The notes under the pieces: model-generated
What the model saw: the letters and a program-made list of their open reading frames with translations, nothing else
Told to the model about the DNA's origin: nothing
Databases searched by the model: none
Translations under genes and position numbers: made by a program
Assembly (NCBI GenBank): GCA_012295275.1
Contig: CM022670.1
Coordinates: 17,598,698-17,662,697, forward strand
Origin: Chrysomallon squamiferum
Lineage: Eukaryota > Mollusca > Gastropoda > Neomphalida > Peltospiridae
Direction of reading: 5' to 3'
DNA: 64,000 nucleotides
Shown here: positions 53,367 through 59,866 of the stretch, piece by piece
Layout of the letters: the number at the start of each line of letters is the position of its first letter
Position numbering within the stretch: the first letter of the stretch is position 1

Positions 53367-54540
53367 ATGTGTTTTATTTTTGGAATAGTCAAAGTGGCTG
53401 ATATTGAATATGAAGTAATATCAGGTTTTCTCCCTTTTACAGCTATTGTAGAAATTATTCATGAAAAATCTCCAGAATTATCAAAAAAAAAAAAAAAAAA
53501 AAAAAAAATTTATATAGCTTACAATGTTATTAAGAAATCACTTCCAGATGAATGGAAAAGTTCTATTAACAGAAAAGCTAAAAGATTAACATCTAATAAA
53601 GATTTATTTTTGTTTCAGAATAATGAAATGATAAATGTCAGTAAATTTACAGTTAAAATAATTTATTCTATTTTAATTTTAAAAAACGTTAAAGCAGCAG
53701 CTTGTGAAAAAAAATGGAATGATCTTGGTTTTAATATATTCTGGAGACCAGTTTGGAAATGGATACACTATTGTGATAAATTTACTGAATTTATAGACTT
53801 AGATTTTAGAACAGTTCATCATATAATATATACATATAGTAAATTATATAAATATGGCAAAATCTCATCTAGTATATGTCCAGTGTGTTTAAAGGATGAT
53901 GAAGATTTGTGCCATTTATTTTTGTATTGTGAAGAATTGACGGAATTAATATCAATTTTTCATGAAATATGTATTCAAATATTTAAGAAAACAGGTTTTT
54001 TCTCTAGAGCAATTAAAAAGATTATTAATATTTGGATGTTATCTAAAAATTGAAAATAGTACAATAGAATTTATTAATATTATTCTTTCAATTTATAGAA
54101 TATCAGTGTTCAAGAGGCGTGTGATAGCTCAATTGTAAGGAACAAACATCAATATAATACATTTTTTTTAGAAATTATGTGTATCAGTGCTTTAAAATCA
54201 TTCGAAATCAATATCGTATTCAAAACAAATTTTTAATTTTTATTAACAAATATGTTAAAAATAATATTTTTCTGGAATTAAAAGATGACATACTTATTTT
54301 CAAATATCCTTTAGCAAGCTACAAATAATCAATATCGTTATATCATCAAAATGGATAAAAGAATTATTACTATAAAATACTGTTAATATATGTGAATATT
54401 CTGAGTAAATAAATATGTGTGCGTGTGAGTGTGACTGAGTGTGTGAGAGGATACCTAATTTTTATTGTTGTTATTTACTGTTTTAATTGTGTACAACTGT
54501 TGATTATATCAATAAAGATAAAAAAAAAAAAAAAAAAAAA
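53367..54540 (+). mobile_element. 5'-truncated LINE (non-LTR retrotransposon) with A tail, joined to a tRNA-Asn half
   Basis: Contains an open frame to 54053 matching the C-terminal end of a LINE ORF2 (VWKWIHYCDKFTEF, DLDFRTVHHIIY, then a knuckle CPVC...CHLFLYC). The layout resembles Tx1/L1-like elements. The reverse-transcriptase core is absent. The 3' UTR (GTGAGTGTGACTGAGTGTGTGAGAG, then ATTGTGTACAACTG, AATAAAG) ends in about 20 A directly against GCGCGTTCG of a tRNA-Asn 3' half. A 27-nt A run inside the ORF (53483 region) may be an expansion. The 5' end is uncertain: the first bases continue the flank of the tRNA at 53285. Confidence 0.75.
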
Positions 54541-54594
54541 CTGCGCGTTCGTCTATTAACCGAAAGGTTGGTGGTTCGAGCCCATTCAGGGACG
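54541..54594 (+). pseudogene. tRNA-Asn 3' half downstream of the LINE tail
   Basis: Starts CTGCGCG directly after the A tail and runs to the end of a tRNA-Asn (anticodon loop CTATTAA, T arm with CCATT in place of CCACC, CAGGGACG). The 5' half is missing. The anticodon would read ATT. Confidence 0.85.
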
Positions 54595-55329
54595 TTATTA
54601 ATATGGGTTTTATTTTTACCTTTTTGAAAAATAAACTTTATTCAGTCTAAACAATATGTCCGCCGTTTAATATATTCCGTTTTAAATGTCTTCTATTAAA
54701 AATAAATGTTACACATATGTATATAACTTAAATTCGTAAATTTAAATCAAAGACCTAATATACATAACTTTTATTTATTTATTTATTTATTTATTTATAT
54801 TTTATTTATTGTGGTATGATATTATGTTGCTTTCTAGATGTTTAATATTTTAATTAAAATTAAATTTATTGTAACAGTTAAAATTAAAGTCGTTACATCT
54901 TAATTTCCCATTCCACTGCAAATGTGCCCGTTGCTGGGTAATTCGAGGACGCAAATCGCGAGATATCGCGAGATCTCGCCAAAATACCCCTACTTGCTAA
55001 TACAGTTCTAAAATTAAACACTTATATAGATTAATGCTTTGATCTGATTATTGTACGTCACATTATAAAACAAAGTCAACAGAATGTATCTATCTAAAGC
55101 ATTAAGTAAACATGTCTACTGAAATATTTAAAATAAGGTATATATGTTTATAATAATAATAATAATAATAATAATAATAATAATAATAAAAAACAGATGT
55201 TAAAACTTACTATTATGATTCATCATTTTCAGTAGTTCACGTCTTACATCAGTTATCTACCTTGTTTAACAATGTGACACGTTTTGTTTTAACAAGACGA
55301 CACGTTATTTCGCATTGTTCGAACAGCCA

Positions 55330-55349
55330 GTCTCTGTAGCGCAATCGGT
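55330..55349 (+). pseudogene. tRNA-Asn 5' half, split by LINE insertion
   Basis: GTCTCTGTAGCGCAATCGGT, the first 20 nt of tRNA-Asn with one change, preceded by the same type of 5' flank as copies 1 and 4. The LINE-derived sequence begins immediately after. Confidence 0.9.
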
Positions 55350-55648
55350 AACAATATTTTCCTAGAACTAAAAGATGACATACTTATTTTCAAATATCCT
55401 TTGGAAAGCTACAAATAATCAATATAGATAAATCATGGAAATGGATAAAAGAATTAATACTATAAAATACTGTAAATATATATGAATATTCCGAATAAAT
55501 AAGTATGCATGCATGTGAGTGTGAATGAGTGTGACTGAGTGTGTGAGAGGAAATGTTTTTTGTTATTGTTATTTACAGCTGTAATGTTATTTTAATTGTG
55601 TACAACTGGTGATTATACTATAAAATAAAAAAAAAAAAAAAAAAAAAA
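55350..55648 (+). mobile_element. Short LINE 3'-end copy inserted in tRNA-Asn
   Basis: About 300 bp that align throughout with the last part of the LINE at 54258-54540 (AAAAGATGACATACTTATTT, TAAAATACTGT, GAGTGTGACTGAGTGTGTGAGAGG, ATTGTGTACAACTG) and end in a run of about 23 A. It lies exactly between the two halves of a tRNA-Asn sequence. Confidence 0.9.
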
Positions 55649-55700
55649 GCGCGTGCGGCTGTTTACCGAAAGGTTGGTGGTTCGAGCCCAGCCTGTGGCA
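55649..55700 (+). pseudogene. tRNA-Asn 3' half, split by LINE insertion
   Basis: Begins GCGCG directly after the A tail, then CGGCTGTTTACCG and the T arm GGTTCGAGCCC. The acceptor 3' strand is degraded (AGCCTGTGGCA). Partner of the half at 55330-55349. Confidence 0.88.
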
Positions 55701-56205
55701 GCATCATATTTTATTATTATTATTATTATCATCAATTCCTTAATGCATTTCTAATTTTAATGTTATTTTTGAAATTAGATTTTGTTTACTTTTATATGTT
55801 TAGGAACAATTAAGCCACTACGTTTTTTATGCAGCCATAGGAAACTTAATGTAAAGCGTGGAAAATGAAATTCAGAAGTTGTTTTGTAAATTCATGTGTG
55901 ATGGGAATAACACCTTAATAAAATATTCAACAAACACTGCAAATAAAAAGTCGGGTGAGCTAAATATTTAAAATGTTTTATTGAAGAAAAAGATGTTTCC
56001 CTTTATTATTTGATAATGTTGTTTGTAAAAATTGTTGTTATTGTTTTATTCATTTTATCTTTGCTCATTACAGTCTTATAAAAGAGATCTATTAATACAA
56101 AGTAAAAATAACTTTGAAGATGAAAAACTCAGGTATTCAGGAAATAACGGAGAAAGATGACGAAAAAATCACCAAATAATAGCATAATACGTTAGCACGA
56201 TACAA

Positions 56206-56268
56206 GTCTCTATGGTGCAACAGGTTAGTGCGTTCGGCTGTTAGGTTGGTGGTTCGAGCCCAGGGACG
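56206..56268 (+). pseudogene. tRNA-Asn pseudogene with small deletions
   Basis: 63 nt from GTCTCTATGG to CAGGGACG. It lacks the anticodon-stem 3' strand (AACCGAAA) and part of the T stem. The flank upstream (AAAGAGATCTATTAATACAAAG, CAGGAAATAACGG) belongs to the same spacer family as copies 2 and 3. Confidence 0.85.
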
Positions 56269-58546: not shown

Positions 58547-58740
58547 AGTTGTACACAATTAAAATAACATTTTTTTAACAAAACTATTTCCTCTCACACG
58601 CTCAGTCTAACCGATGCATGCATACTTAGAGATTTGACAGCGGTATTTTATAGTATTAAAAATATACGTGATCTATTGTGAACCGAGTTAATTGATTATT
58701 TGGTGATGAAAATAAGTATGTCATCTTTTGAAAATATTGC
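58547..58740 (-). mobile_element. Short LINE 3'-end copy inserted in tRNA-Asn (minus strand)
   Basis: 194 bp aligning on the minus strand with the other LINE ends (AATATTTTC-AAAGATGACATACTT, AAGTATGCATGCAT, GCGTGTGAGAGGAAAT, AATTGTGTACAACT). The final part with the A tail is missing. The break falls at a GTT shared by the LINE and the tRNA, as expected for a microhomology deletion. Confidence 0.88.
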
Positions 58741-58766
58741 GCTAACCGATTGCGCCACAGAGACAT
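58741..58766 (-). pseudogene. tRNA-Asn 5' half (minus strand), split by LINE insertion
   Basis: Exactly nucleotides 1-26 of tRNA-Asn (GTCTCTGTGGCGC then AATCGGTTAGCGC), unmutated, directly followed by LINE sequence. Confidence 0.92.
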
Positions 58767-58854
58767 GACAGCGGTTGTCTGCCATATGTTTCTACCATTA
58801 ATCAAACAGTATTTCCCTCGATATCTGACTACTGCTGTGGCTTTTGTAAAAATT

Positions 58855-59180
58855 ACTACCACTGCTACCACGAATGTTGTCATTAATGTCGTCGTTATTA
58901 TTACCACCACTACTACTACTACTATTTGTATCATTACTACTGCTACGACTATTATTATTACTACTGCTACTACAGTTACTAACAATACTGCTAATATTAT
59001 TATTATTAACACTGCTACTACTACTACTACTATTATTATTACTGCTAATACTATTATTATTAAAACTGCTGCTATTACTGTTATCACTGTATTTGCTATT
59101 ATTACTATTGCTATTACTACTATAATTACAACTGTTATTATTATCAATACTATCGTTGTTTTACTACTGCAGTTACTGTT
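58855..59180. repeat. Compound trinucleotide (ACT/ATT/GCT) low-complexity block
   Basis: Imperfect TAC/TAT/TGC triplets over about 325 bp produce Thr/Ile-, Leu- or Val-rich frames on both strands. These are not real proteins. Confidence 0.9.
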
Positions 59181-59430
59181 ATTATTACTTATTAGATTAT
59201 TAATTTTCAGTATGACCATCGCCATTATGGTATAACTGAAAATCAGCTACAAATTGTATTTCTAGAGTTGTATCTGTGGCCATCATGAATAATAAATATA
59301 TTTATTAATCTAAAATACCTTTTCTCTTATCTTTTTTACAGATCAGTTTTATCATGCTCAGATCACAAATTATAAAACTGTAAAATTGTACAAGTGGTTA
59401 ATAATGCCCCTGAAATAACGTATGGTAGGG

Positions 59431-59483
59431 TGTAACTAGGTGGGCCTGAACCGCCAATCTTTCGGTTAACAGTCAAACGCGCT
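59431..59483 (-). pseudogene. tRNA-Asn 3' half (minus strand) after an A-rich tail
   Basis: On the minus strand AGCGCGTTTGACTGTTAACC, then GAAAGATTGGCGGTTCAGGC and CCACCTAGTTAC: a diverged tRNA-Asn from about nucleotide 22 on. Directly upstream is an A-rich LINE-like tail. Confidence 0.8.
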
Positions 59484-59599
59484 TTTTATTATTATTTGTT
59501 TTTCACTTTATTAATAAAATTTAACAGATGTGCATAAATAAATAAAAGTAAACAATACATAACAAGAGTAAAAATACACACACGCACTCACTCGTTCTA
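59484..59599 (-). mobile_element. Probable related LINE tail
   Basis: Minus-strand GAGTGAGTGCGTGTGTG, then ATTAATAAAGTGAAAAAC and an A-rich end abutting AGCGCG of a tRNA-Asn half. It resembles the other LINE tails in layout (GTGAG-rich block, AATAAAG, A tail) but not base for base, so it may be a sister family. Beyond it, 59600-59760 matches the tRNA spacer at 56035-56190 inverted. Confidence 0.5.
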
Positions 59600-59866
59600 A
59601 ATTATGTTATTATTTGATGATTTTTACTTTTACTTCATCTCTTCCGGTTATTTCCTGACTACCTGAGTTTTATCTTTATCACAGTTATTTTTACTTTGTG
59701 TTAATAGATCTCTTTTATATATCTGTAACGAGCTAAGATAAAATGAATAAAACAATAAAAACAATTTTACAAACAACATTAAAATTAAAAAATAATGAAG
59801 AAAAAAAGGTGTGGTTTTATTGTCCCATTACTTTGGTTGAGTGACTCAATAATAATAAGATTAATT

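Follow-up and report, generated by a model that had tools for sequence, protein, structure and literature searches.

A long interspersed nuclear element (LINE) in the genome of Chrysomallon squamiferum very probably inserts inside genes transcribed by RNA polymerase III (Pol III), at a near-constant position and by target-primed reverse transcription. We met it in a 64,000-nucleotide stretch of contig CM022670.1 (positions 17,598,698 to 17,662,697; hereafter, the window), and its copies were then sought in the window's own genome (404.6 Mb, 22 contigs) with the LINE 3′ untranslated region (UTR) as the probe. A preliminary description of the window had taken the element to be specific for tRNA-Asn genes. 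Judged from the flanks of its copies, however, the target seems to be the class of small Pol III RNA genes rather than tRNA-Asn alone.

The tRNA-Asn cluster of the window spans 50.6 to 60 kb and comprises five units read as whole by ARAGORN and six broken ones, four of which contain a LINE piece (copies A, B, C, and D; coordinates in Table 1). As first described, all four pieces lie within or against tRNA-Asn units, which blastn and junction reading confirmed. The A-rich tails of A (54540), B (55648), and D (59484) meet the tRNA at one base, Sprinzl 21|22 (A|GCGC) in the 3′ strand of the D-stem, and the tail of C has been lost. At A, the poly(A) is followed by two extra bases (CT) and then by GCGCG of the tRNA; at B, it directly precedes GCGCG, with 1 or 2 target bases missing; at D, an A-rich end precedes GCGCG, and the entire 5′ half of the tRNA is gone. 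Both tRNA halves are retained at B and C, again as described.

The genome-wide search yielded 76 candidates for the LINE 3′ end. Forty, window copy A and 39 others, were scored, with the 3′ side read in each; two were masked (L023a and L045), leaving 38 readable copies. Twenty-two of the 38 terminate within a clear Pol III gene, namely 17 in tRNA genes of nine kinds, four in 5S rRNA genes, and one in a U6atac gene, and seven more end in degenerate tRNA sequence or sequence resembling a short interspersed nuclear element (SINE). The tRNA kinds were assigned with ARAGORN and by blast, using intact tRNAs from the loci concerned as references, except for L042, whose kind was assigned on sight with an Rfam score of 28.5 bits; Rfam gave nothing useful on L052 to L055. 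Specificity for tRNA-Asn, which hosts all four window copies, did not survive the check on other genomic flanks: just two of the 38 readable copies lay in tRNA-Asn, and most of the remainder either occupied the equivalent position in a different tRNA gene or lay in 5S and U6atac genes. A tRNA-Asn-specific LINE was therefore rejected as having next to no probability.

The position of the B box relative to the junction was consistent with insertion within tRNA genes. A B box (≤2 mismatches) started 26–32 nucleotides beyond the junction in 23 of 40 copies; when the position was shifted within those flanks, 9 of 1188 placements gave such a box. The test set consisted of 32 of the 40 scored copies and eight extra copies; the omission of the two masked copies and of six readable copies lacking a clear tail run (L037, L040, L043, L044, L047, and L048) favors the proposed insertion mode, and 5S, U6atac, and doubly tailed copies cannot pass the test. 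LINE tails adjoining tRNA sequence might also be expected of tRNA-derived SINEs with LINE tails, or of chimeras formed by template switching between tRNA and LINE. These origins were ruled out by the two-sided junctions, where the tRNA 3′ half after the poly(A) resumes the 5′ half found ahead of the LINE. Long LINE copies exist as well, and the SINE arrangement, with both promoter boxes (A and B) preceding the LINE tail, was not what these 23 copies showed, their B box lying after the poly(A). The probability left to such origins is negligible.

Both tRNA sides were observed at L013, L020, L021, L024, L025, L026, and L029. When flanks were joined, ARAGORN returned the expected tRNA at six of nine sites, and the Ile site also did so after correction of its start; the joined flanks failed at the Ala site and at one Val site, the latter being without its first bases. 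Six further copies (L012, L031, L033, L039, L046, and L051) read as the expected tRNA once the 5′ half of a paralogue was added, a weak test, as half of the sequence is borrowed; L022 and L027 were set aside as possibly involving another tRNA instance. The insertion overlaps ranged from 1 to 89 bp (Table 1), and small deletions also occurred. At L011, 5S nucleotides 1–39 lay upstream and the sequence from nucleotide 26 lay downstream, forming a 14-bp duplication (nucleotides 26–39); the upstream 5S part of L019 was the same, with an altered downstream copy, and the overlap at L028 was 9 by eye. At L020, 89 identical bases were duplicated, leaving a whole tRNA-Val gene upstream. Locus A is probably a comparable case, with a 75-bp target-site duplication: the portion from nucleotide 22 of the whole tRNA-Asn-like gene upstream of the LINE forms one copy of the putative duplication, the first anticodon base is A in each copy, and the 3′ flank common to both tRNA copies had no other match in the window at E 1e-3. 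A tandem duplication preceding the insertion is the alternative at this locus. The A box corresponds to tRNA nucleotides 8–19. Thus, while the D-arm location given earlier holds, the insertion site is just 3′ of the A box rather than within it, and the claim that each insertion kills its host gene is not general, since L020 and probably A keep a whole upstream tRNA gene.

Two copies suggested passage from one tRNA gene to another. In L024, the LINE is followed by a tRNA-Pro 3′ part (assigned by eye) with 159 bases of flank, a second poly(A) of 21, and tRNA-Ala from the same position, and the tRNA-Ala 5′ part lies upstream of the LINE. The tRNA-Gly of L042 is preceded by a short piece resembling tRNA-Lys and by a further run of A. 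We read both cases as 3′ transductions from an earlier tRNA insertion, and L024 as a tRNA-to-tRNA jump. Interrupted tails, in which GCG or C separates two A runs, were also seen in L017 (~7139), which sits in unrelated DNA, and in L014 (~7112), and are perhaps traces of an earlier target. Separately, a related LINE piece from mid-ORF2 (second open reading frame) in L012 (7244-7551; residues 384–470 of the related protein P0002, described below) has an A-rich end abutting tRNA-Glu from ~nucleotide 23, which may reflect insertion of a truncated RNA at that same site.

Sequence identity among copies showed that the target range is broad within one lineage. Fifteen copies, counting the probe's own place, were 98–100% identical over the full 308-base 3′ probe of L022. 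Their hosts were Cys, Gly, Lys, Glu, Val (three), Phe, Asn, and U6atac genes, the remainder being tRNA-like L028 and L035, L042 (Gly via Lys), one masked copy, and one copy in unrelated DNA (L041). A further four were 98–100% identical over part of the probe, namely window copy B (Asn; 99% over probe positions 24–308), L049 (degenerate), L037, and L040. Because near-identical copies lie in many gene kinds, a single young subfamily has a broad Pol III range, with seven tRNA kinds and U6atac. The 5S copies were 96–98% identical to tRNA copies over 2.3 kb, and a tree of 14 copies placed all four of them with L018, whose flank is unrelated, on a side of their own (split support 0.987); they may belong to a sister subfamily. 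L021 is 5′-truncated, so its low identities in the pairwise matrix carry no meaning.

The coding content placed the element in the L1 group. Copy A itself gave a zf-RVT match at E 0.001 and 20.1 bits, below the Pfam cut-off of 27.5. A plain-fragment protein search with copy A returned one relative only; the closest proteins were P0001 (64% identity over 64% of the query) and P0002 (54% over 97%). P0002 has 1281 amino acids with an apurinic/apyrimidinic (APE) endonuclease, a reverse transcriptase, and zf-RVT by Pfam. Among solved structures, it matched human L1 ORF2p with 299 bits (residues 16–892), compared with 59 bits for R2; the endonuclease and reverse transcriptase are, via P0002, nearest to L1 ORF2p, supporting a relation to the L1/Tx1 group. 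Long genomic copies reach ~5.4 kb (L020) and are 51–78% identical to P0002, piece by piece, and the reverse transcriptase region of P0002 was located in long loci by tblastn. An ORF1 with two CCHC knuckles was found in L011 and L017, and the element's own APE endonuclease was found in L023 (Exo_endo_phos, 40.3 bits); a piece in L027 matched RVT_1 (19.1 bits) and zf-RVT (19.4 bits), both under the Pfam cut-offs. An ORF2 with endonuclease and reverse transcriptase is thus present, though its frames are broken in the copies read. The top Protein Data Bank match of the element's own endonuclease was 2v0r "LTX" (85.2 bits; runner-up 75.8), which we take to be the L1 endonuclease with the target-binding hairpin of Tx1L, so Tx1 kinship is likely. 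Relatives of the ORF2 were found in Mytilus and sea cucumbers. Scans of viral contig collections gave a single relative (L001, 28%), in which no tRNA was detected by ARAGORN, and a scan of a further genome contig collection gave nothing.

Several observations weigh against insertion confined to Pol III genes, or reduce the number of independent cases. Only 40 of the 76 candidates were scored, and nine of the 38 readable copies have unrelated DNA at the 3′ junction. One of them, L010 (6176-7151), lies in AT-rich DNA with an apparent 13-base direct repeat at both ends; therefore, the element can also insert off Pol III genes. The young subfamily is not exempt: L041, nearly identical to it (100%), lies in unrelated DNA, and L037 and L040 (99–100% over 293-294 bases, 3′-truncated) have no Pol III gene. 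These last two share the same 3′-truncation point, lie ~100 kb apart on contig C3, and have unlike flanks. The seven degenerate tRNA assignments were made on sight, and L039 and L042 score 28.6 and 28.5 bits against an Rfam tRNA cut-off of 29, as expected of halves. L013a and L013b have their 3′ flank in common, the four 5S copies are confined to contig C13 and have spacers that resemble one another, and several copy pairs lie within duplicated tRNA clusters, so that not all copies are independent. Furthermore, none of the 20 long loci read (L010 to L029) has an unbroken ORF2, and recent activity is accordingly judged by near-identity.

The relatedness of the LINE pieces in the window was examined by testing their local alignment scores against 500 Markov shuffles and 500 window pieces per pair. 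Pairs A–B (score 366; maxima 119 for shuffles and 92 for window pieces), A–C (130; 86 and 74), B–C (156; 72 and 89), and A–D (68; 62 and 55) were related beyond chance, B–D was marginal (57; 60 and 60), and C–D was not significant (27). The 5′ flank of B resembles that of the tRNA at 52948 (84% over 125 bp), and its 3′ flank resembles that of the tRNA at 52236 (79% over 68 bp); the 5′ side of D resembles that of the tRNA unit at 56206, unit E (82.5% over 206 bp); and the flanks of A and C did not match those of B and D at E 1e-3. Because the flanks of A, B, C, and D differ, one insertion copied as a segment is disfavored, and the window loci are, as far as their flanks show, not segmental copies of one insertion. 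A caveat concerns B (55350) and C (58738), which begin at most 3 bases apart in the LINE despite their differing flanks; these two may share part of their history and not be independent. This coincidence could point to duplication of tRNA units or gene conversion, without separate insertions, as the origin of the window copies, and tRNA units do duplicate, as the common 3′ flank of L013a and L013b illustrates. Nevertheless, A, B, and D differ in flanks and 5′ ends, and many tRNA kinds are struck across the genome, which make such an origin very unlikely. The differing flanks and the many tRNA kinds rule out that the copies arose in general by segmental duplication of one insertion.

A constant 3′ junction with poly(A) and variable 5′ truncation is characteristic of elements without long terminal repeats (non-LTR). 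The tails, junctions, and 5′ truncations thus support the earlier proposal of a target-primed non-LTR insertion with a fixed 3′ junction in the D arm. Because the 3′ side is constant and the 5′ side variable, we infer target-primed reverse transcription from a fixed nick in the bottom strand. The element's endonuclease would nick the non-coding strand of the Pol III gene at the end of the D-loop in tRNA genes (Sprinzl 21|22 to 23|24), just past the A box, after nucleotide 25 in 5S, and after nucleotide 26 in U6atac. The freed 3′ end would prime reverse transcription off the poly(A) tail, giving the constant 3′ junction, and the second strand would be cut at a variable distance, giving the 1–89 bp overlaps or small deletions. 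In intact paralogues of the Asn, Val, Glu, Gly, Cys, Lys, Phe, and Ile genes, the base left of the junction is A and is indistinguishable from the tail.

Known systems were compared as they are described in the cited papers. TRE5 elements of Dictyostelium, such as TRE5-A (L1 clade), are likewise LINEs with an ORF1 and an ORF2 carrying APE, reverse transcriptase, and a zinc finger, and target tRNA genes and also extrachromosomal 5S genes, inserting 40–54 bp upstream of the former and 37–41 bp upstream of the latter (PMC5911963, PMC5006619). In contrast, the present element inserts inside genes at nearly one base position, and the fixed-distance insertion outside the gene that typifies TRE5 was not seen among these intragenic insertions. 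The zebrafish non-LTR elements Dewa, Mutsu, and Keno insert in the tRNA-Leu spacer, 5S, and U2, respectively (PMC3706591), and an APE-type endonuclease occurs in Keno and the Tx1 clade (PMC4640811). They resemble our element in taking small RNA genes or spacers as targets, but each has one target as named there, whereas here one subfamily occupies many tRNA kinds and U6atac, with close sisters in 5S. Dewa, Mutsu, and Keno all belong to Tx1.

NeSL-1_TV (tRNA-Pro), LIN15_SM (tRNA-Arg), and LIN25_SM (tRNA-Glu) are also non-LTR elements targeting tRNA genes (PMC4640811). However, they are NeSL-related, from a lineage with a restriction-like endonuclease, and have one tRNA kind each as named; in our element no such endonuclease was found, and an APE endonuclease is present instead. 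Dada DNA transposons (Dada-tN and others) share intragenic fixed sites and the use of multicopy RNA genes as a haven, inserting in tRNA genes near the A box or anticodon, with five lineages at nucleotides 8–13, and in 5S and small nuclear RNA genes (PMC8869645). They employ a DDE transposase and produce 6–7 bp duplications (PMC3706591), whereas poly(A), endonuclease and reverse transcriptase domains, and overlaps of 1–89 bp set the present element apart from them. In a review of Pol III-targeted retroelements, the insertion windows described lie upstream or downstream of genes (PMC5911963). No LINE with a many-gene, gene-body Pol III target range was found in full-text literature searches; Repbase lay outside these searches, so an unpublished or unnamed entry may exist. 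As far as these sources go, the LINEs they name as RNA-gene inserters are each tied to one gene, unlike the present element, which targets the interior of many Pol III genes at an almost constant position.

What guides the element to these genes can be read in two ways. The endonuclease might recognize DNA sequence at the 3′ end of the A box, GGTTA|G or GGTAGA|GC, in which case U6atac would carry GGTTAGC by chance and 5S would be struck by a sister subfamily with altered specificity. R1, R2, and Tx1-type elements are held to recognize sequence. GGTTA|G or AGA|GC stands at most tRNA sites in intact paralogues, GGUUA|GCA spans the junction in the U6atac family model (in L036, the gene's own 5′ side enters a masked stretch, and an empty site in this genome was not seen), and the separate tree position of the 5S copies and L018, despite their near-identity to tRNA copies, would fit altered specificity. 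However, 50 kb of the window outside tRNA genes contain two GGTTAGC, which extrapolates from this small sample to ~16,000 per genome, yet of the off-target copies, the four read on their 5′ side (L010, L016, L017, and L018) all lack GGTTA at the junction. The motif is also absent from 5S (AAAA|CACCGG), and all 22 clear targets are Pol III genes. We consider sequence guidance possible, at rather below an even chance.

Alternatively, the Pol III machinery (TFIIIB, TFIIIC, or the polymerase) might guide the nick to a fixed distance, ~+25 to +32 of the transcript, whichever of the three promoter types is involved, which has about an even chance. The site is 25|26 in 5S (up to four bases less certain, owing to an A run) and, going by the family model, 26|27 in U6atac; for tRNA genes it is 21|22 counted on the mature molecule, to which a short leader has to be added. 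Pol III, not sequence, is common to the three gene types. TRE5-A, which is likewise of the APE/L1 type, depends on the B box, and in vitro TFIIIB is bound by its ORF1 protein (PMC5911963, PMC5006619). Against guidance by the machinery, there are just one U6atac and four 5S copies, the U6atac site is compatible with the sequence motif too, no U6, 7SL, or RNase P target turned up (none was searched for in the genome), and the Pol III-targeted elements covered by the review land outside the gene (PMC5911963). On balance, guidance by the machinery stands slightly ahead of guidance by sequence. The fuller proposal, in which the Pol III initiation complex itself would guide a metazoan LINE to cut at ~+25 to +32 in type 1 (5S), type 2 (tRNA and tRNA-derived SINE-like), and type 3 (U6atac) genes, with the target regenerable through long duplication, falls just short of an even chance.

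Table 1. Features of the window tRNA-Asn cluster, with hosts and overlaps of element copies across the genome
Feature	Window position	Strand	Basis or remark
Four intact tRNA-Asn (GTT) genes, at 50648, 51855, 52236, and 52948	50648..53023	+	ARAGORN, Rfam
Whole tRNA-Asn-like gene, anticodon ATT, immediately upstream of insertion A	53284..53359	+	ARAGORN; Rfam 46.1 bits
Putative target-site duplication of insertion A, upstream copy	53307..53381	+	63/75 identical to 54543-54617
LINE copy A: ORF2 C-terminal portion (zf-RVT), 3′ UTR, and poly(A)	53382..54542	+	
tRNA-Asn 3′ part at insertion A, starting at Sprinzl nucleotide 22	54543..54594	+	blastn, junction reading
tRNA-Asn 5′ half at insertion B	55330..55349	+	joined flanks read as tRNA-Asn (gtt) by ARAGORN
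LINE copy B: last ORF2 codons, 3′ UTR, and poly(A); young subfamily	55350..55648	+	
tRNA-Asn 3′ half at insertion B	55649..55698	+	blastn, junction reading, joined flanks
tRNA-Asn 3′ half at insertion C	58499..58546	-	blastn, joined flanks
LINE copy C: internal deletion, no tail	58547..58738	-	blastn, alignment
tRNA-Asn 5′ half at insertion C	58739..58764	-	blastn, junction reading, joined flanks
tRNA-Asn 3′ part at insertion D	59430..59482	-	blastn, junction reading
LINE copy D: diverged 3′ tail	59484..59591	-	local score 68 vs A, shuffle maximum 62
5′ flank of the tRNA unit struck by D	59592..59795	-	82.5% over 206 bp to 56002-56200, flank of tRNA unit E
tRNA-Asn targets: window A, L039			
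tRNA-Lys targets: L012, L026, L046			
tRNA-Ile targets: L013a, L013b			
tRNA-Val targets: L020a, L031, L033			
tRNA-Glu targets: L021, L025			
tRNA-Cys target: L022a			
tRNA-Ala target: L024			via Pro
tRNA-Gly targets: L027a, L042			
tRNA-Phe target: L029			
5S rRNA targets: L011, L014, L015, L019			Rfam
U6atac target: L036			Rfam
Degenerate or SINE-like tRNA targets: L028, L030, L034, L035, L038, L043, L044			by eye
Unrelated 3′ flank: L010, L016, L017, L018, L037, L040, L041, L047, L048			
Copies beyond the 40 scored: window B, C, D (Asn); L020b, L051 (Val); L027b (Gly)			
Copies beyond the 40 scored: L022b (degenerate Cys); L049 (degenerate); L050 (Leu)			L050 by eye
Overlap lengths: L021 11; L025 3; L026 1; L029 2; L013a 3			count may include tail A
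Overlap lengths, one mismatch each: L020b 13; L024 14			count may include tail A

Other features of the window were also recorded. A tRNA-Asn copy at 59866-59928 (minus strand) is without ~12 bases between the two D-stem GCGC, a gap that spans the insertion site and could be a repair scar of a nick, or plain slippage; it scores 48.4 bits with Rfam, above the tRNA cut-off despite being broken. Unit E (56206-56264) is a tRNA-Asn copy with its anticodon arm partly deleted, and a degenerate tandem array with a 40-base unit (57081-57609) lies between both halves of the tRNA cluster. Elsewhere, a large ORF at 30487-35073 has ZNF462-like zinc-finger matches (PF23225 barely above the cut-off), and an ORF with a THAP domain is located at 38236-38598.

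The element lets one ask, in an animal, whether a LINE finds its gene class by sequence or by the transcription complex, and it could act as a natural map of Pol III occupancy. By preserving a complete tRNA gene upstream, the long duplications show how an element inserting into gene bodies can avoid harm, and they may increase the number of tRNA gene copies.

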